29,018 nt of DNA from a virus, in the IMG/VR virus record IMGVR_UViG_3300027971_000172, positions 1 to 29,018 of that record. One strand, given 5' to 3'. The notes under the pieces are model-generated. The model did no database searches. It was not told the DNA's origin and saw nothing but the letters and a program-made list of their open reading frames with translations. Positions within the stretch are counted from its first letter, which is position 1, and every line of letters begins with the position of its first letter. Position numbers and translations under genes: made by a program. Below, one piece after another: positions 4,282-15,277 of this stretch.

Positions 4282-5202
4282 TTAGGCGGGAAGAATGAAA
4301 CCGGCGCGGATACCCTCCGCGATGATCGCACGGCCGCGCGGGCCGACCGGCGCTTTAGCGCGGAGACCGACGATCACCCCGACCGGATCGGTGAAGCGTA
4401 GGTCCGTCTGGTCACCGTCGATCACCTGCGAGATCTGCCCGGCGATCATCGCGAGCGGTGGCAGGTTCTCGGCGTACGTTGAACGATCGCGAGTCTTGCG
4501 AGTCGACGTACTAAACGGTGCAGCCACGTTGATGCCACTGGCCAGCTCTATCGCGGCCTGCTCTGCGTTATCCTCCGAGAGACTAAACGTCAGATGGTAG
4601 TTCGTCGGCCACTGTGTGACACCGGCGCGGCGGCGGGCGGTCGGCCACTTCGTGTAATCGTAGAACGTGATCGTCGGGAAAGCTTCAAACACGTTCGCGA
4701 ACGTCTCACCGCCGCGGTTCACCGGCCACCGCTCCCACGGTAGGTCCGACGTGCCGTTGAGTCTCACCGCGGGAGCCAAGCCATGCTTGCCCGCTAGCTT
4801 TACATGGTTTTCAATCTCCCGCATTAGCGCGGCGAGGAACGCATCACGATTCTGCGACCAGTACCTCGTCCGGCGAATTCGGGCCGTTTGGATCGTGTTT
4901 AGACCGTCGCGGTCAAGACCGATACCGCCGCGGCCGGATTGATCAAGACAAGCAGCGCGGCAACCGTTGGACGCAAAGGGGCAGACGTTCCGGCCGGAAC
5001 GATCCGCGGGTGAGAGATGTAAGACCGCGGTCAGATAGCCAAGCTTCTCACCCTTAGCGGTTTTAGGATTACCACGAGTGAGTAGACCGCCCACGGGCGG
5101 CCGCTGATCAAGGTCGAAGACCGATGACGTTGCGCGGCCGCGGCCTGCGTTCATTAGGTCACGGGGGAGGCATCCGGGGGAGGCGTATTTAGGTGTTGGC
5201 AT
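4282..5202 (-). CDS. Gp88/DUF7227-like phage protein, 306 aa
   Basis: Largest gene of the left arm. Landmarks: NPKTAKGEKLGYLTAVLHLSPAD (about residues 45-67), a cysteine cluster CPFASNGCRAACL (Cys74, Cys81, Cys85), then RGGIGLDRDGLNTIQTARIRRTRYW, and AVRLNGTSDLPWER (145-158). These match my memory of phage proteins annotated as Gene product 88 domain or DUF7227, of unknown biochemical role. The C-x6-C-x3-C group may bind a metal or iron-sulfur cluster (inference). The start at 5202 follows GTAGG by seven bases and the recurrent leader hairpin (5218-5232). It is read in one direction with the 50-residue gene upstream. The exact family name is uncertain. Confidence 0.8.
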   Translation of the reverse strand: MPTPKYASPGCLPRDLMNAGRGRATSSVFDLDQRPPVGGLLTRGNPKTAKGEKLGYLTAVLHLSPADRSGRNVCPFASNGCRAACLDQSGRGGIGLDRDGLNTIQTARIRRTRYWSQNRDAFLAALMREIENHVKLAGKHGLAPAVRLNGTSDLPWERWPVNRGGETFANVFEAFPTITFYDYTKWPTARRRAGVTQWPTNYHLTFSLSEDNAEQAAIELASGINVAAPFSTSTRKTRDRSTYAENLPPLAMIAGQISQVIDGDQTDLRFTDPVGVIVGLRAKAPVGPRGRAIIAEGIRAGFILPA

Positions 5203-6787: not shown

Positions 6788-8905
6788 ATGGCTAGCCGAC
6801 TCTCAAACTTCACCCGCGCCGTCGCGGGGGAGAAAGCTCTCCCCGCTCCTCCACCAGCAGACCTGTACGGTGCGGCTGGCCTCCCGATCGGCGGCCCAGC
6901 AGTCCCGCTTACTTCGCGTCTCAGTCAACGCGAAGCCCGGCGCCACATGGCGGCTTACGGCGGCGCGCAAGCAATCGACACTCTGAACAATTGTGTCAAC
7001 ACTTATCTTGATGCGCTGACTCTTGCAGAGTGGGAGCTTAAGAAGGACGGAGTGACTTACGTTCCGCATTTGCCTAAGGAGGCGCCGCCGGAAATTCTTG
7101 AGGCGCCACAGGATCTCGTCGAGTTGATTGAGCGGCCGAACCCTTGGCAGAACTGGGATAACTTCTTGGGCCTCGCTGTCACCGACTACTTGATTCTTGG
7201 AAACTTCTACTGGCTTAAGTTCCGAACGACACAGGGCAGCGATAAGCCACTGGCGTTGTACAGGCTGAACCCGGCCGACGTGACTGTCTTGCCGGGCAAG
7301 ACAGAGTTGATTGCTGGCTACGAGTACAAGATCCCCGGTCATGGTGAGCCTGTGCATTTTCCGGCGGACATGGTGATTCATGGCATGCGCCCGAATCCGC
7401 ACAACCCTTACTTTGGTTTGGGCATCGTCGCTGCTGGCGCTCGGATGCTCGATACTGAGATCGCGTTGACTGAGACTCAGGCTCAGTTCTTTGAGCAGGG
7501 TGCGAAGCTGTCGGGCGTGTTGCAGACTGACCGTCGCGTTCCGGACCCAGTGTTTAAGAAGATCACGATGCAGTTCCGCAATTTGTATTCCGGCAGCCAG
7601 AACGCTTACAAGGTTGCCGTGTTGGAGCAGGGCCTCCAGTTCAAGAGCATTCAGCCGACGGCGGCCGAGAGCGAGTTTGTTGCGTTGAGCAACCTTTCGT
7701 TTGAGCGGCAGTGTCGTCTGTTCAGGATTCCGCCGGAGTTGTTGCAGGGGTCAAACAATGGGCGACCGGGGATCATGCAGGAGGCTAAGCGTCAGTTCAC
7801 GAGTGACACGATGGCTCCGCTGATCAAGCGGTTGAACGCGATCATCTCGCATGAGCTGACTCAGCCGGGCTGGGGCTTTGACTTTTTCATGGACTACAAG
7901 TATGTGATGCCGCGTGAGGATCAGCTCAAGCTGGTCGCTGGCATTGCCACCTTGCCGGGCATCCGCATTAACGAGATCCGTCAGGAGGCTGGGCTTGAGC
8001 CGTTGCCGAAGAACGAGCTTGGTGATGACGGCAAGCCGATCGGCGACATGATCATCAACTTGCCAATGCCGTCAACTGAGAATCCCGGCGGCGTCGCGGA
8101 CCAGCCGTTGCCAAACGAGGCCGGGCGCCCACCGAAGATGGAGAACACTTTGGCGTTCGCGACTCGCGGGTCGGGCAGTAACCCGAAGCCAAATGGGTTT
8201 GGTGCGCCAGCGGGCGAGGCGGCCGCAAAGACTGGCAAGGGATTGCTTGAGACGATCGAGCTGCTCGAGGAGGCCCTTGGGGTCACTGACGCTAAGGCCG
8301 TCGGTGGGCATGTACCACCGCAGGGTGTGCGCTCTAACGCAAAGCGCGGTCTTGAGATGTACGCCAACGGCGAGGCCGGTGACGGACTGGAGGGAGCAAC
8401 GGTCTCTCGCGCTCGCAGGATCGCTGCCGGGTCAGCCTTGACCGACGCGCATGTGATGCGGATGCACTCGTTTTTTGAGCGGCACGACAAGACTCGGCCC
8501 GCTGACGGCGGCCGTGGCGAGTCACCGTGGCGGACAGCTTGGATGTTGTGGGGCGGCGACGCCGGACGCAGATGGGCCGGGTCAGTAGCCAAGCAGATTC
8601 AAGGTGAGGGCAAAGCTGCCACTGACGGCTTCGCAGAAGCACAGCAGGCCCTCTACGAGACGATTTGCGTCGAAGGGAAGGGCTTGGGTAAGGTTGACCG
8701 GGAAACTCTCGTAGCGAGCGTTTTGGCGTTGGGCGGTCTCGCTCAGGGCGTCAAGGAAGTTGCAGCTCGTGAACTGAGTGAGGGTGTGCGCCGGGGCTAC
8801 AGCATCGAGCAGCTTTGGGAGGGTTACGTCGCCGAGGGCTTTGCCGGGGTGCAGCAAGTGGTTTCCGGCTGGTACGGACGCGATGATGCGTCCCATGACG
8901 GCTGA
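6788..8905 (+). CDS. Portal protein with C-terminal extension, 705 aa
   Basis: HK97-type portal, forming the dodecameric ring at one capsid vertex through which DNA passes. Residues about 35-420 carry the portal fold: an N-terminal helix with VNTYLDALTLAEWEL, then LIERPNPWQNWDNFL, DYLILGNFYWLK, a YRLNPADVTVLPG block, VIHGMRPNPHNPYFGLG, and the clip/stem region with FRIPPELLQGSNNGRPG. After a proline-rich linker, residues about 506-602 form a second domain with GVRSNAKRGLEMYANG, ATVSRARRIAAGSALT, FFERHDKTRP and AWMLWGGDAGRRWA. I know this type of domain as a recurrent module in phage structural proteins; its role is unknown to me. The last ~100 residues are helical and unrecognised. Portals are usually 400-550 residues, so this one is long. 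In-frame stop TAA at 6779 limits the start; no good ribosome site is seen. Confidence 0.92.
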   Translation: MASRLSNFTRAVAGEKALPAPPPADLYGAAGLPIGGPAVPLTSRLSQREARRHMAAYGGAQAIDTLNNCVNTYLDALTLAEWELKKDGVTYVPHLPKEAPPEILEAPQDLVELIERPNPWQNWDNFLGLAVTDYLILGNFYWLKFRTTQGSDKPLALYRLNPADVTVLPGKTELIAGYEYKIPGHGEPVHFPADMVIHGMRPNPHNPYFGLGIVAAGARMLDTEIALTETQAQFFEQGAKLSGVLQTDRRVPDPVFKKITMQFRNLYSGSQNAYKVAVLEQGLQFKSIQPTAAESEFVALSNLSFERQCRLFRIPPELLQGSNNGRPGIMQEAKRQFTSDTMAPLIKRLNAIISHELTQPGWGFDFFMDYKYVMPREDQLKLVAGIATLPGIRINEIRQEAGLEPLPKNELGDDGKPIGDMIINLPMPSTENPGGVADQPLPNEAGRPPKMENTLAFATRGSGSNPKPNGFGAPAGEAAAKTGKGLLETIELLEEALGVTDAKAVGGHVPPQGVRSNAKRGLEMYANGEAGDGLEGATVSRARRIAAGSALTDAHVMRMHSFFERHDKTRPADGGRGESPWRTAWMLWGGDAGRRWAGSVAKQIQGEGKAATDGFAEAQQALYETICVEGKGLGKVDRETLVASVLALGGLAQGVKEVAARELSEGVRRGYSIEQLWEGYVAEGFAGVQQVVSGWYGRDDASHDG

Positions 8906-9985: not shown

Positions 9986-10351
9986 GTGCTTCAGCCCGCT
10001 CACTACAACTTTGTAGTCAAGCAGGGCGCCACTTGGCGCAACGTCTTTACGCTGTATCAAGGTGACACGTCTGGCGCGGTCGTCAACCTCACCGGCTACA
10101 CCGCAAAGCTTGAGGTCAAGGATGTTGGCGCGAGCCTTTACGCCACGCCTTCAACAACGAAGCTGCTGACTCTCACTGAGAGCAGCGGCATCACTCTTGG
10201 TGGGACGGCTGGCACGATCACTGTACTGCAGTCAGCAACCCAGACTGCGGCTTACCCTTGGGCTAGCGGCGAGTACCGGCTGACCCTCACGGCTCCCGGC
10301 GGCGACACCAACGTCTACCTTTACGGTGACGTCACAGTTGAGAGGTTCTGA
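9986..10351 (+). CDS. Ig-like/BppU-like virion protein, 121 aa
   Basis: Starts at GTG one base after the previous stop. The sequence YNFVVKQGATWRNVFTLY, GYTAKLEVKD, LTLTESSGITLGG, YPWASGEYRLTLTAP and YLYGDVTVERF is typical of a small beta-sandwich domain found at the N-terminus of phage baseplate/upper fibre proteins (BppU-like) and as separate proteins beside head or tail fibres. About 100-130 residues is the normal size. It ends TGATG into the next gene, so the two are co-translated and probably form one complex. Confidence 0.78.
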   Translation: MLQPAHYNFVVKQGATWRNVFTLYQGDTSGAVVNLTGYTAKLEVKDVGASLYATPSTTKLLTLTESSGITLGGTAGTITVLQSATQTAAYPWASGEYRLTLTAPGGDTNVYLYGDVTVERF

Positions 10352-11793
10352 TGCCGACTCAAGTGCAGGCGATCACGGTCAGCGACGGCAACATTGCACT
10401 GACGCAGACTAATTCGACGGTCAACGTCGTTGAGTCGTTGACGGGCGCTCAGGGTGCGACGGGTCCTACTGGAGCTACTGGAGCTACTGGAGCTACAGGT
10501 GCAGCAGGACCAACCGGCGCGACTGGCCCGACGGGTGCTACTGGAGTTGTTGCAGCGACCGCCCCGGCGACCTATAACTCTGGCACTCAAACGGTTGGAG
10601 TGACTGTCGGCACAACGTCTAACACTTTGGCCGCCGGTGATGACAGTCGAATTACGGGCGCTGCCCAAAAGGCCAACAACCTCAGTGACCTTGCTAGCGC
10701 AGCTACGGCTCGAACTAACCTTGGCCTTGCCCCGACTTCGGCAACGGCACTCAGCACAACTAACACAGTTGTTGACAAGGCCGCGCTAACTCCCGCCTAT
10801 GTGGCGCCGCATAACGTAGGTGAGTGGAATGGGCTGCATAGACAGGTGCAGTCTCCCCTTGAGTCAAGCCCGTCTCACGCGGGGATCTCGACGCTGCCAT
10901 CTGTTCTAGCAACTGCGACTATTGCCGGAGCTGTCAGTGCCGGTACAGGGACGCCCACCGGTCGTCTGACTGCTACATGGGTTTACGTTCCGGCAGCAAT
11001 CAGTGTTCAGCATGTTCGCTTTGCGTACTCAACAAGACTGCCTACTGACATTGTCGATGTGCGAGTGGGCATCTGGAACAGCTCACAAACTAATCTTGCT
11101 ACTTCTTTAAACCTTGTAAACGCAACAAGCTCAGGGAACGGCAGCAACGTACCTGCATCAGACAACAGCCGTTTTCAGACAATCTCGGGCGTTACTGTGC
11201 AAAGCACACAGGGCGCTCCAAGCTCAACGCTTAACATTGTCTGCACGTCAGGTCGTCCGGTAGTCAACATGGCCGTGACAACAGCAATTACAGGACTGGC
11301 AGCTAACGTCACGATTACTAACGTCGTCCCTCTCGGAGGCGTTACCAATGGCTACACCTTGACTTTGAGCGCCGCCACAACTGTCGCCCTAAGTGCAGGC
11401 ACTGCGATCACGTTTTCACCAAACAACATTATTGAAACGCGGCGGCAAACCGGAAACTTTAACGTCATAAGCGGATCGACGCTACTTGCCAGCCCTTACG
11501 CAGCGTTCAGCAGCCCAGTAGCGTTGTCCGCTGGCTGGTACTTAGCTGGAGTGTGGGCGGGCGGCGCAGCTTCTTCGGCTACGCCTACAATGGTTTCTTC
11601 TGTGCTAATGACTGCTTTTGCTGGAATACCGATGGTTGATCAAGCTGGCCCAACCTCTGCACCCGGCTTAAACAACTTCAAAGTTGGTTCACTGTATGTG
11701 GACAACGTCGCTCTTACAGGAGGTTTGCTCCCGACGATTGGAGCCAGCCCTGCAACAAGCGCAGGCACCCTGTACCTAGACTTGATGAGCTAA
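10351..11793 (+). CDS. Collagen-like fibre protein, 480 aa
   Basis: An N-terminal strand region (about residues 1-30) precedes a collagen-like stretch of GAT/GPT/GAA triplets (about 33-68), expected to form a trimeric triple helix. It is followed by AAQKANNLSDLASAATARTNLGL, a well-known phage fibre shaft motif, and by a beta-rich C-terminal half. Residues about 289-357 contain GLAANVTITNVVPLGG with LTLSAATTVALSAGTAI, resembling the small beta modules in two tail proteins of this window. A receptor-binding head or tail fibre is likely; its location upstream of the protease and capsid genes suggests a head fibre (inference). Ribosome site GAGAGG five bases before ATG. Confidence 0.82.
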   Translation: MPTQVQAITVSDGNIALTQTNSTVNVVESLTGAQGATGPTGATGATGATGAAGPTGATGPTGATGVVAATAPATYNSGTQTVGVTVGTTSNTLAAGDDSRITGAAQKANNLSDLASAATARTNLGLAPTSATALSTTNTVVDKAALTPAYVAPHNVGEWNGLHRQVQSPLESSPSHAGISTLPSVLATATIAGAVSAGTGTPTGRLTATWVYVPAAISVQHVRFAYSTRLPTDIVDVRVGIWNSSQTNLATSLNLVNATSSGNGSNVPASDNSRFQTISGVTVQSTQGAPSSTLNIVCTSGRPVVNMAVTTAITGLAANVTITNVVPLGGVTNGYTLTLSAATTVALSAGTAITFSPNNIIETRRQTGNFNVISGSTLLASPYAAFSSPVALSAGWYLAGVWAGGAASSATPTMVSSVLMTAFAGIPMVDQAGPTSAPGLNNFKVGSLYVDNVALTGGLLPTIGASPATSAGTLYLDLMS

Positions 11794-11819: not shown

Positions 11820-12821
11820 ATGGGCAAGTTCACTTGGGAGTTCGCGCTTGCGGGAAAGGCAGTCGAAGAGCAGGACGGAGACCTCTACATCGAGGGCTAC
11901 GCTTCCGACTTCGACGTTGACCGCGACAACGAGTACATCGCACCGGGCGCACTCCAGAAAGCTTTGGACGCTTACATGGCAAACCCAGTGTTGTGTTATC
12001 ACCACAAGATGTCGGACGCCATGGGTCAGGTTGTTGAGGCTCGCGTCGACGGCAAGGGCTTGTGGATCAAGGCTCGGGTCGACCAGCCCGAACCGGGTAC
12101 CGAGGCAGCTAATCGTTTCCGTCAGGTTGCTAAGGGAACCCTGCGTGGGTTCTCGATCGGTGGATTCTTCAAGAAGGCAGTTGAGCGCGGCCGCACGATC
12201 ATCAACGAGATTGACCTTGTTGAGATCTCACTGACCCCAACTCCGGTTAATCCTAGGACGCTTGGCACCGTTGTTGGTAAGGCTCTTGGCGACGACACGG
12301 CCGAGGCCGAGATGGAAACCCCGCTTGTTGAGGCGCTCGAGACTGTGCTTGGTTCGGCTGTAGTTCTGTATTTTATGGCGCACGGATCTCACTGGAACGT
12401 CAAGGGGCCAGCATTCGGCGCCTACCACGAACTGTTTCAAGAAATCTACGAGGACATCTACGAGTCGATCGACCCGATCGCTGAGCAAATGCTCAAACTG
12501 GGCGTCGATGCCTGCTTTACTCTGTCTGATTTTCTTGACGAGAGCGTCATCTCAAACGACAAGCCTGCTGACGATTCTCCGGAGGCACTCGTCACCATGT
12601 TGCTCACCGCTAACGCTGAGTACCTGACAGCGCTCAACACTCTTTTTGCCATTGCCACTGCTGACGATCAGCAGGGCATTGCGAACATGGCGGCCGATCG
12701 AATTGACGCTCACATGAAGTGGGCTTGGCAGCTTCGCCGCAGCGTCCAGAACCCTAACTCACCCGTTTTGGACACGGCCGCGCTGGACACGATGGAGCAG
12801 GCGCTCCGTCAGATGTCATAA
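11820..12821 (+). CDS. Prohead protease fused to a Dps-like ferritin domain, 333 aa
   Basis: Residues about 1-155 form an HK97-type prohead maturation protease: LYIEGYASDFDVDRDNE, CYHHK with the presumed catalytic His (61 or 62), GFSIGG with Ser112, and LVEISLTPTPVNP with Glu136. After a linker, residues about 168-310 match a Dps-like ferritin domain: AHGSHWNVKGPAFGAYHELF then IYESIDPIAEQMLKLG. His191-Trp192, His203, Asp218 and Glu222 reproduce the ferroxidase residues of Listeria Dps (His31, His43, Asp58, Glu62) with identical spacing; the position of its Asp47 is Gln207. The fusion would bring an iron-oxidising or DNA-protecting domain into the prohead. No ribosome site; a weak promoter motif sits just upstream. 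Confidence 0.9.
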   Translation: MGKFTWEFALAGKAVEEQDGDLYIEGYASDFDVDRDNEYIAPGALQKALDAYMANPVLCYHHKMSDAMGQVVEARVDGKGLWIKARVDQPEPGTEAANRFRQVAKGTLRGFSIGGFFKKAVERGRTIINEIDLVEISLTPTPVNPRTLGTVVGKALGDDTAEAEMETPLVEALETVLGSAVVLYFMAHGSHWNVKGPAFGAYHELFQEIYEDIYESIDPIAEQMLKLGVDACFTLSDFLDESVISNDKPADDSPEALVTMLLTANAEYLTALNTLFAIATADDQQGIANMAADRIDAHMKWAWQLRRSVQNPNSPVLDTAALDTMEQALRQMS

Positions 12822-12928: not shown

Positions 12929-14362
12929 ATGTCAGACCAAACACAGTCGCGTGACGAGGATCTCGCCGCTCGCCTCGAGGATCTGCAGGCCAAGGCCGCA
13001 GCCCTTCTCGATCGTGCGCAGGCAGCCGATCCCGCAGACGCGAAGTCTCTGCGCGCTGAACTCGATTCCGAGATCAAGCCCGCGCTTGAGGCACTCACAG
13101 CAGAGCGTGACGCTGAAATCAGCGCCCGCGAAATGAAGGGTCTCAAGGAGCAGGTCAGCACTTTGACCGGCGCCATCGAGTCGCTTCGCAAGCCAGTTGA
13201 CTTCAGCTTTGGCGTTCCTACCGGCGAAGTTGTCGGCGAGACCGTTTACCGCAAGAAGTCACTTGGTTCAGCAGAGCCAGAAGGCACCGGCCAGAGCTTC
13301 TTCGCCGATGTCCTTGCAGCCAACAAGGGTGATCAGGCCGCAATCGGCCGTATGTCACAGGCTTGGGGCCAGAAGGCAGCAGCGTACCTTTCAGGTACAA
13401 GCGGCGCTGGCTCAACTGCTTCCAGTGGTTCGGGCCTGTCGGAGGGTACCTACACTCCGGCAACCTTTACCGGTGGCGGCTACCTCGTTCCGCCGGAGAT
13501 CAGCTCTGAGCTGGTCGTTCTGCGTGAGCAGGCAGCAGTGCTTCGTCAGATCTGCTCGTCAATTTCGGTTGACAGCCCGTCACTGCAGATCGCTTCTGTC
13601 ACTGGTGGCACCATCGCAGCTTGGGTTAACGAGCTGACTGAGAAGCCATACCAGAACATGACGTTCTCAAACATCAACGCGAACGTATACACGGCTGCTG
13701 GCCTCGGGGTTATCTCGAACCAGCTTCTCATGGATGCGCGCACGTCGATCGACTCGTTGCTGATCAGCGACCTTGCCAAGCGTCTTGCAACGCTTGAGGA
13801 AGTTGCGTTCATCAACGGTTCCGGTACCGATCAGCCGAAGGGCATCCTTAACACTTCTGGTGTTAACGCTCAGTCGGTTGGTTCAGACACGACCATCCCA
13901 GTGCTGCTCGACAAGATCCTTGCGGGCATCACCGACGTTCAGACCAACTACCAAGGCAACCCAAGCCACATTCTGATGCACCCCCGTACATGGGCGCGTA
14001 TTGTGGCTGCCCGCGAGTCAAGCGCACCGTCGACGTACCTGATCGGCGCTGGCGCGACTTCGTTCGGTCGCCGTGGCAGCGATGCCCTTCCGGGTGGAGA
14101 GCTGTTTGGTCTCCCGGTTGTCCTCACCAAGAACATGCCTACGACTCTCGGCTCGGGAAGCAACGAGTCCCGCGTCATCGTCGGCAACTTCGGCGAGGCA
14201 CTGATCCTTGATCGTCAGGGAATCACCGTCGATCAGTCGCCACATGTCCTGTTCACCCAGAACCAGACGGTCTTCCGGGCGGAAGAGCGCGTTGGTTTCA
14301 CCGCAGCTCGTTACCCCAAGGCTTTCTCCGTGATCAGCGGAACCGGCCTTGCCTCGGGCTGA
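12929..14362 (+). CDS. HK97-fold major capsid protein, 477 aa
   Basis: Residues 1-100 are charged and helical, a coiled-coil scaffold (delta) domain, and a Gly/Ser-rich stretch follows. From about residue 183 the mature domain starts: GGYLVPPEISSELVVL, AAWVNELTEKP, LLISDLAKRLATLEEVAFINGSG, PKGILN, ILMHPRTWARIV and FRAEERVGFTAARYPKAF are hallmarks of the HK97 family. The protease encoded just upstream is expected to remove the N-terminal part. The 107-base gap before the gene holds a TGTCAT-N9-TAACTT promoter-like element (12814-12834), giving a leader of about 90 bases, unlike the leaderless units. AAGGA lies 12 bases before the ATG, a long spacing. Confidence 0.95.
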   Translation: MSDQTQSRDEDLAARLEDLQAKAAALLDRAQAADPADAKSLRAELDSEIKPALEALTAERDAEISAREMKGLKEQVSTLTGAIESLRKPVDFSFGVPTGEVVGETVYRKKSLGSAEPEGTGQSFFADVLAANKGDQAAIGRMSQAWGQKAAAYLSGTSGAGSTASSGSGLSEGTYTPATFTGGGYLVPPEISSELVVLREQAAVLRQICSSISVDSPSLQIASVTGGTIAAWVNELTEKPYQNMTFSNINANVYTAAGLGVISNQLLMDARTSIDSLLISDLAKRLATLEEVAFINGSGTDQPKGILNTSGVNAQSVGSDTTIPVLLDKILAGITDVQTNYQGNPSHILMHPRTWARIVAARESSAPSTYLIGAGATSFGRRGSDALPGGELFGLPVVLTKNMPTTLGSGSNESRVIVGNFGEALILDRQGITVDQSPHVLFTQNQTVFRAEERVGFTAARYPKAFSVISGTGLASG

Positions 14363-14647: not shown

Positions 14648-15277
14648 ATGGCTCAGAGTGAAATTATTACCCTTAGTCAGCTCAAGGAAGCCCTTGGCAC
14701 TCCGGTTTCGGACACCACCAAGGACATCAAGCTGACGCAGGCGATCAAGAGCGCCTCGTCCGCGATTCGTACTTACCTTGACCGCGACTTTGGTACTGCT
14801 GTGGTCACTGAGACTCGCACGTTCGTCTACGACGGCTCGGGCATTCTCGAAATTGACGACTGCGTTAGCGGTTCGATTACGTCAGTCGTGGTTGCCGGGC
14901 GAACTGTCAGCACTAAAGAGTGGCTGCCACAGCCGTACCGTCGCAGCCCAGTGGTTTACTGGCTACTGCTGGCGCCCGCTTATGGCATCAGTCCGGCGAT
15001 GGGCTTCACATGGAACCTTGACACTTACTATTTGTACGCCAATCCTGTGGCTTACACGATTGACGTCGATGTCACGGCTGACTGGGGTTGGACTGAGATC
15101 CCTGAGGACATTCAGCAGGCAGCGATTTACACCGCAGCCGCGATGGCTGAGACTCCGAAGCCTTACGTTTCGCAGAACTACGGCAGCTACAGCGTTCAGA
15201 TGCCGACGCCGTTTGACACTGCGATCCCCGAGCGGGCCAAGGCGCTGCTCGATCCGTACCAACGCCTGAGGCTCTAA
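14648..15277 (+). CDS. Head-tail connector (gp6/Ad1-like adaptor), 209 aa
   Basis: N-terminal helices (ITLSQLKEALGTP, KLTQAIKSASSAIRTYLDRDFG) followed by a beta region with TRTFVYDGSGILEIDD and a C-terminal helical part with IPEDIQQAAIYTAAAMAETPKPYVSQNYGSYSV. This layout is that of HK97 gp6-like adaptors, which bind the underside of the portal after packaging. Position directly after the capsid gene agrees. Promoter-like TGTCGT-N9-TAGACT ends six bases before ATG, and there is no ribosome site, so a leaderless start is likely. The stop overlaps the next ATG (TAATG). Confidence 0.85.
   Translation: MAQSEIITLSQLKEALGTPVSDTTKDIKLTQAIKSASSAIRTYLDRDFGTAVVTETRTFVYDGSGILEIDDCVSGSITSVVVAGRTVSTKEWLPQPYRRSPVVYWLLLAPAYGISPAMGFTWNLDTYYLYANPVAYTIDVDVTADWGWTEIPEDIQQAAIYTAAAMAETPKPYVSQNYGSYSVQMPTPFDTAIPERAKALLDPYQRLRL

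Follow-up and report, generated by a model that had tools for sequence, protein, structure and literature searches.

A prohead protease joined to a Dps-type ferritin domain, and a virus-only Dps clade recurrent among the head genes of uncultured phages

Bacterial Dps proteins such as MrgA, Listeria Dps, HP-NAP and PA0962 combine a four-helix fold and a BC helix with two histidine, one aspartate and one glutamate ligands. Dps folds form 12-subunit cages. In head maturation of the HK97 and T4 types, the prohead protease must sit inside the prohead to act, and the mature head normally retains neither HK97-type proteases nor their fragments. The encapsulin shell also has the HK97 fold. As two reports describe them, encapsulin systems hold a ferritin-superfamily protein within that shell, and their encapsulated ferritin (EncFtn) has two main helices (PMC5012862, PMC6668986). 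Extra domains that are probable capsid cargo occur on MuF and polyvalent head proteins (PMC5576092, PMC5512222). Zeta-like kinases are among those fused to phage MuF head proteins in the second of these papers (PMC5512222), which mentions neither ferritin nor Dps.

Phages are also known to encode Dps. In cultured phages (Aeromonas phages LAh and BUCT695, Salmonella SNUABM-01, SU10 and Lactobacillus phages) these are stand-alone middle or nucleotide-metabolism genes, situated outside the head module. The Dps gene stood alone in the four cultured phages that we examined (two of Aeromonas, one of Salmonella and one of Streptomyces), in three of them amid ribonucleotide reductase, thymidylate synthase or polymerase genes. 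In SU10, Dps is a middle gene, and mass spectrometry detected its product in phage that had been prepared without gradient purification (PMC4281155). Oxidative-stress genes, including ferritin, are frequent in freshwater phages; the paper describing them, in whose main text the word protease is absent, proposed host defence against oxidants (PMC6802176). Host protection was likewise proposed for Gratiaviridae, from gut phages (PMC8008677), and for Lactobacillus phages (PMC6669764). Phage Dps genes and freshwater-phage ferritins are thus already known; we found no description in the open-access literature of a Dps fused to a protease or located in a head module.

Such a fusion is encoded in the window, that is, the whole analysed stretch of 29,018 nucleotides of an IMG/VR virus record (IMGVR_UViG_3300027971_000172; Table 1). 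Judged by its profile matches and predicted fold, the ORF is an S78-type prohead protease joined in frame to a genuine Dps domain, as the sequence-only reading had proposed. Pfam placed Peptidase_S78 and Ferritin (residues 171-310, 1.3e-15) far above their gathering cut-offs, with 58 bits against 21 for PF04586, and TIGR01543 scored 64.3 against a cut-off of 59. PHROG profiles assigned the ORF to the head maturation protease phrog_80 and to the Dps-type phrog_3636. A phmmer search against solved structures matched the C-terminal half to Dps proteins, with CAIP of Helicobacter cinaedi and PA0962 at the top. Candidate catalytic residues H61/H62 and S112 (RGFSIGG), proposed from the sequence motif, are kept in the window and in two related loci (L001 and L002; L numbers denote related loci throughout). 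The top cultured relatives match the protease half only, to about residue 177 of the fusion. Unlike MuF proteins, the ORF had no match to a MuF domain in Pfam, PHROG and NCBIfam scans, and its additional domain is a ferritin. An assembly artefact is ruled out as the source of the fusion because it recurs in three other, independent contigs. Chance resemblance to Dps is ruled out by the Pfam score, the phmmer matches and the structural superposition.

Table 1. Features of the head region in the window and of the protease-Dps fusion
Feature	Position (nt)	Strand	Evidence
phrog_1617 protein	4282-5202	-	strong match, 2e-61
Portal protein, phrog_2859 domain at aa 507-611	6788..8905	+	phrog_12 4.8e-60
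Collagen-like (G-x-y repeat) fibre gene, between portal and protease	10351-11793		
Prohead protease-Dps fusion ORF, 333 aa + stop	11820..12821	+	Pfam, PHROG, TIGR01543; architecture common to L001, L002, L003
S78 / HK97-type capsid maturation protease domain, aa 15-147	11862..12260	+	PF04586 1.5e-15; TIGR01543 above cut-off; Foldseek to T4 gp21 5jbl
Linker, aa 148-167, mostly low pLDDT, candidate self-cleavage site K153|A154	12261..12320	+	pLDDT; motif likeness to capsid protein; inference
Dps-type ferritin domain, aa 168-310, ligands H191, H203, D218, E222; clade marks D212, K226	12321..12749	+	
Asp212, near-invariant mark of viral Dps clade	12453-12455		
Lys226, near-invariant mark of viral Dps clade	12495-12497		
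C-terminal extra helix, aa 320-333	12777..12818	+	AlphaFold2 helix 320-332
HK97-fold major capsid protein, N-terminal coiled segment, likely cleavage motif KK|SLGSAE	12929..14362	+	phrog_10 8.9e-60; PDB 1ohg, 2gp1
Head-tail adaptor	14648..15277	+	phrog_442 1.8e-24

The gene order in the window is portal, collagen-like fibre, fusion ORF, capsid protein, head-tail adaptor, then neck and tail genes. It includes the order portal, protease and HK97-type capsid protein that is typical of HK97-family proteases (S78; TIGR01543), to which the N-terminal half belongs by profile. The fusion lies within the head module and is not a separate auxiliary gene outside it. A collagen-like fibre gene in that place is unusual for a gene of tail-fibre type; collagen-like genes also lie just upstream of the protease in L012 (3348-6317) and L002 (4384-5952). 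The phrog_2859 domain at the C-terminal end of the window portal was seen in L018 (aa 79-182), L050 (aa 229-361) and L004 as well, and by eye it precedes Dps in Dps-S78 proteins such as that of L051. It reads as a shuffled head-module domain travelling with Dps, perhaps a capsid-targeting part. The window had no tRNA and no Rfam match.

An AlphaFold2 monomer of the fusion protein, computed from an alignment of 31 sequences, has helices at residues 168-193, 199-226, 254-281 and 285-310 and a short BC helix at 235-241, with pLDDT of 89-98 over this block. The four-helix bundle on which the sequence-only reading had staked its Dps assignment is therefore present in the predicted fold. The Dps half superposes on Bacillus subtilis MrgA (2chp) at 1.6 Å over 145 residues, with Z about 22 (Foldseek, VIA-align). 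Residues 167-311 match Listeria Dps 7-152, and the offset (160) equals that of the ligand pairing. This complete four-helix Dps, tied to a viral protease, differs from the two-helix EncFtn fold. The protease half is predicted to be beta-rich with moderate confidence, and Foldseek matched it to the T4 gp21 protease. A flexible linker with pLDDT < 50 spans residues 140-162, slightly farther upstream than the 150-167 first suggested.

All four ligands predicted in the Dps half are there and had been numbered correctly (H191-W192, H203, Q207, D218, E222): H191, H203, D218 and E222 of the fusion equal H31, H43, D58 and E62 of Listeria Dps. Among the matches listed, the four are invariant in 165/165 distinct viral domains from 75 clusters. 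The search patterns covered only the HWNV and YHE-FxEI stretches and later helices; neither D218 nor E222 falls in any pattern, and the invariance of these two was thus not imposed by the search. The residue at the place of Asp47 is indeed Gln207, but it can no longer be taken as the sign of a damaged site. In the 165 viral domains listed, this position holds E, Q, G, A, L, S, N, K or M and never D, and most of the 81 sampled cellular relatives have Glu, Gln or Met. Since it is mostly Glu in those cellular relatives, we did not count this position as defining, and lost activity through a missing Asp47 is ruled out by the cellular residues.

Two other residues distinguish the viral domains from bacterial Dps. 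Lys226 is found in 165/165 viral domains among the matches listed, against 2/81 cellular ones, and Asp212 in 163/165 against 21/81. Situated one helical turn beyond the ligand Glu222, Lys226 may modulate the ferroxidase site. Within the S78-Dps proteins, dN/dS is 0.04-0.16 for the Dps half, 0.05-0.10 for the protease and about 0.25 for the tail, the C-terminal extra helix being the least conserved part. By these ratios the Dps half is under purifying selection. A decayed ferritin domain is ruled out by the invariant ligands and dN/dS. The domain has a net charge of -12 to -17 and no lysine-rich tail of its own, so the protection of DNA, a role that the sequence-only reading had entertained, is not favoured by way of direct, tight binding; its acidity speaks for iron chemistry instead.

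The S78-Dps order is repeated in L001 (88%) and L002/L003 (82%), from different metagenomes. UniProt holds an 80% identical, 333-aa protein of an uncultured phage annotated merely as 'Prohead protease' (A0A6J7XDU5). More broadly, the domain falls within a Dps clade restricted to viruses, of at least 165 distinct domains in at least 75 clusters, defined at 70% identity on metagenomic sequences that are mostly fragments. In the tree this clade is separated from cellular and cultured-phage Dps with 100/100 support, and the cultured-phage copies that were tested group with cellular Dps. Both the cellular relatives and the cultured-phage copies are stand-alone. No cultured phage with the fusion was found in about 50,700 records. 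A genome scan for a prophage host gave only cellular Dps with 27-36% identity, with no member of the viral clade among the best 80 listed.

The genomic setting of the clade also separates it from bacterial Dps. Among the matches listed, a head protease shares the ORF with Dps in 17 of the 75 clusters, in at least six architectures: S78-Dps (the window, L001, L002), N-domain-Dps-S78 (L013, L015, L051, L078; Pfam S78 1e-39 to 1e-45), XkdF-like-Dps-coil (L041, L080), phrog_9427 protease-Dps-coil (L050), a portal-protease-Dps protein of 1740 aa (L018) and S78_2-DUF6496-Dps (L201). By the same count, 12/75 clusters have a same-strand protease gene no more than 4 kb away, often touching the Dps gene (overlaps of 10 bp in L016 and 5 bp in L004); a portal gene abuts the Dps gene in 33/75, nearly always across a gap of 0-21 bp, and a terminase gene is nearby in 2/75. 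The remaining 11/75 are truncated by a contig end or lack a clear head neighbour. Neighbours beyond the PHROG and Pfam scans were called with small HMMs built from PHROG and Pfam hits. Dps heads a longer protein in 10 of the 33 portal-adjacent clusters, with DUF5824 in all seven that were scanned. Dps was seen N-terminal to DUF5824, directly after the portal, in the actinophage-like contigs L034, L244, L289, L295, L297, L298 and L302. In L078 (5154-6959), a HAD-phosphatase-like domain (weak Pfam match) precedes the Dps-S78 fusion. Stand-alone members apparently outside head modules occur in L020, L024, L035, L061 and L074, and several of these run opposite to the genes on either side.

The clusters do not represent independent events. 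Within the viral clade, the fusion types are scattered over poorly resolved branches, and the proteases differ: S78 identity is only 28% between the window and L015, and 48% between L015 and L013. Several separate fusion events are therefore suggested by the tree and the sequences. The 33 portal-adjacent clusters probably go back to a single insertion, or a small number of them, in actinophage-like viruses, which would weigh against reading them as independent recurrences. The L034 portal is 40-77% identical to actinophage portals. The nearest cultured head module, that of actinophage DSL-LC01, has a portal with 77% identity and lacks Dps at that place, as do the other cultured actinophage relatives sampled.

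From its position and the known role of such proteases, we infer that the Dps domain enters the prohead, because whatever is fused to a protease that works there would be taken in with it. The case for prohead delivery is strengthened by the repeated occurrence of this Dps clade in fusion with, or next to, the portal and head-protease genes of unrelated head modules. We propose, on evenly balanced grounds, that the ferroxidase domain enters as protease- or portal-linked cargo and guards the packaged or incoming genome against iron and oxidants. Late in infection, the protease would be built into the prohead, where its task is to remove the delta part of the capsid protein from within, and the Dps domain would be carried along. 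The Dps parts would pair across the Dps dimer interface into ferroxidase sites of two His, Asp and Glu, perhaps as 12-subunit cages with the proteases on the outside. Once maturation is over, the protease may cleave itself in the linker near K153. With a width of about 9 nm, a Dps cage would be too large for the shell pores and would thus stay with the DNA, whereas small cleavage fragments would escape. There it could oxidise and hold Fe(II), sparing the genome, packaged or just after entry, damage from iron and peroxide. The broader proposal, that ferritin is packed into the virion in a large group of uncultured tailed phages, brought in through fusion or association with the capsid protease and portal, and shields the genome, enclosed or incoming, from iron and oxidants, is put forward tentatively.

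The HK97 capsid protein is cut at the end of its N-terminal segment. In three fused proteins, the linker carries K153-A-L-G/D at a conserved position, and this resembles the K-S-L-G/E that ends the N-terminal segment of the capsid protein in the same three phages. We take the motif as only a hint of release by self-cleavage, since K-A-L is also present at residues 47-49, inside a predicted helix. The Dps domain could, like the protease, be lost from the mature head, which counts against the cargo proposal.

So does a sizeable stand-alone minority (the L020, L024 and L061 groups) for which a location in a head module is not evident, one member lying near a DnaC-like helicase loader. Such members would fit a role in the cytoplasm of the infected cell, where Dps would lower free iron and oxidants and thereby keep the host alive for long enough; the late structural fusion would then mean abundant expression only, perhaps followed by cleavage. 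This is how the authors read ferritin in freshwater phages, and Dps in Gratiaviridae and Lactobacillus phages, and the same has been suggested of further phage genes for Dps, catalase and thioredoxin. It leaves unexplained why most clusters show fusion or adjacency to a head protease or portal, as against the nucleotide-metabolism neighbours in cultured phages, and we consider it rather unlikely here.

Alternatively, the domain might serve assembly, oligomerising as a core for the protease or as a nucleation particle in the prohead, with the metal ligands kept for stability and not for iron chemistry. The 12-subunit cages of Dps folds are in keeping with this, as are L005, L028, L041 and L050, in which Dps is joined to coiled, scaffold-like segments. 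Nevertheless, a purely structural role would neither require four ligands that are invariant in 165/165 of the domains listed nor favour stand-alone versions beside portals, and related head modules of cultured actinophages do without the domain at the same place; we regard this explanation as improbable.

Head-module places collect cargo domains, as zeta-like and ADP-ribosyltransferase-like neighbours and published polyvalent head proteins show (PMC5512222). Zeta-toxin-like kinase domains adjoin Dps in L007, L016, L066, L270 and L303 and are fused in L052 (7575-9968), and ADP-ribosyltransferase-like domains were seen in L017, L052, L066, L270 and L274. Dps might accordingly be one more effector packaged on head proteins and brought into the new host together with the DNA, in the manner of the zeta-type kinases and ADP-ribosyltransferases that MuF and other polyvalent proteins carry. 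Zeta-like kinase or ADP-ribosyltransferase-like domains share the head module in 9/165 loci among the matches listed, and the same ORF once (L052). These loci are few, and an assembled cage would not fit through the tail, which leaves only small or unfolded units as injectable; injection thus seems very improbable to us.

The recurrence of Dps domains in capsid genes of uncultured phages suggests that their heads may contain an iron- and oxidant-scavenging protein. If true, viruses would have their own equivalent of the ferritin-loaded encapsulin, within one family of HK97-fold shells, and this bears on the theme of ferritin inside such a shell, which encapsulins share. Phage Dps and ferritin genes have so far been read as an aid to the infected cell, whereas the head-protease fusions and portal adjacency point to the particle instead, which bears on the habit of filing phage ferritins under auxiliary metabolic genes. 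Whether virions carry antioxidant or iron-binding cargo becomes a directly testable question, with a bearing on the survival of particles in sunlit, iron-rich water.
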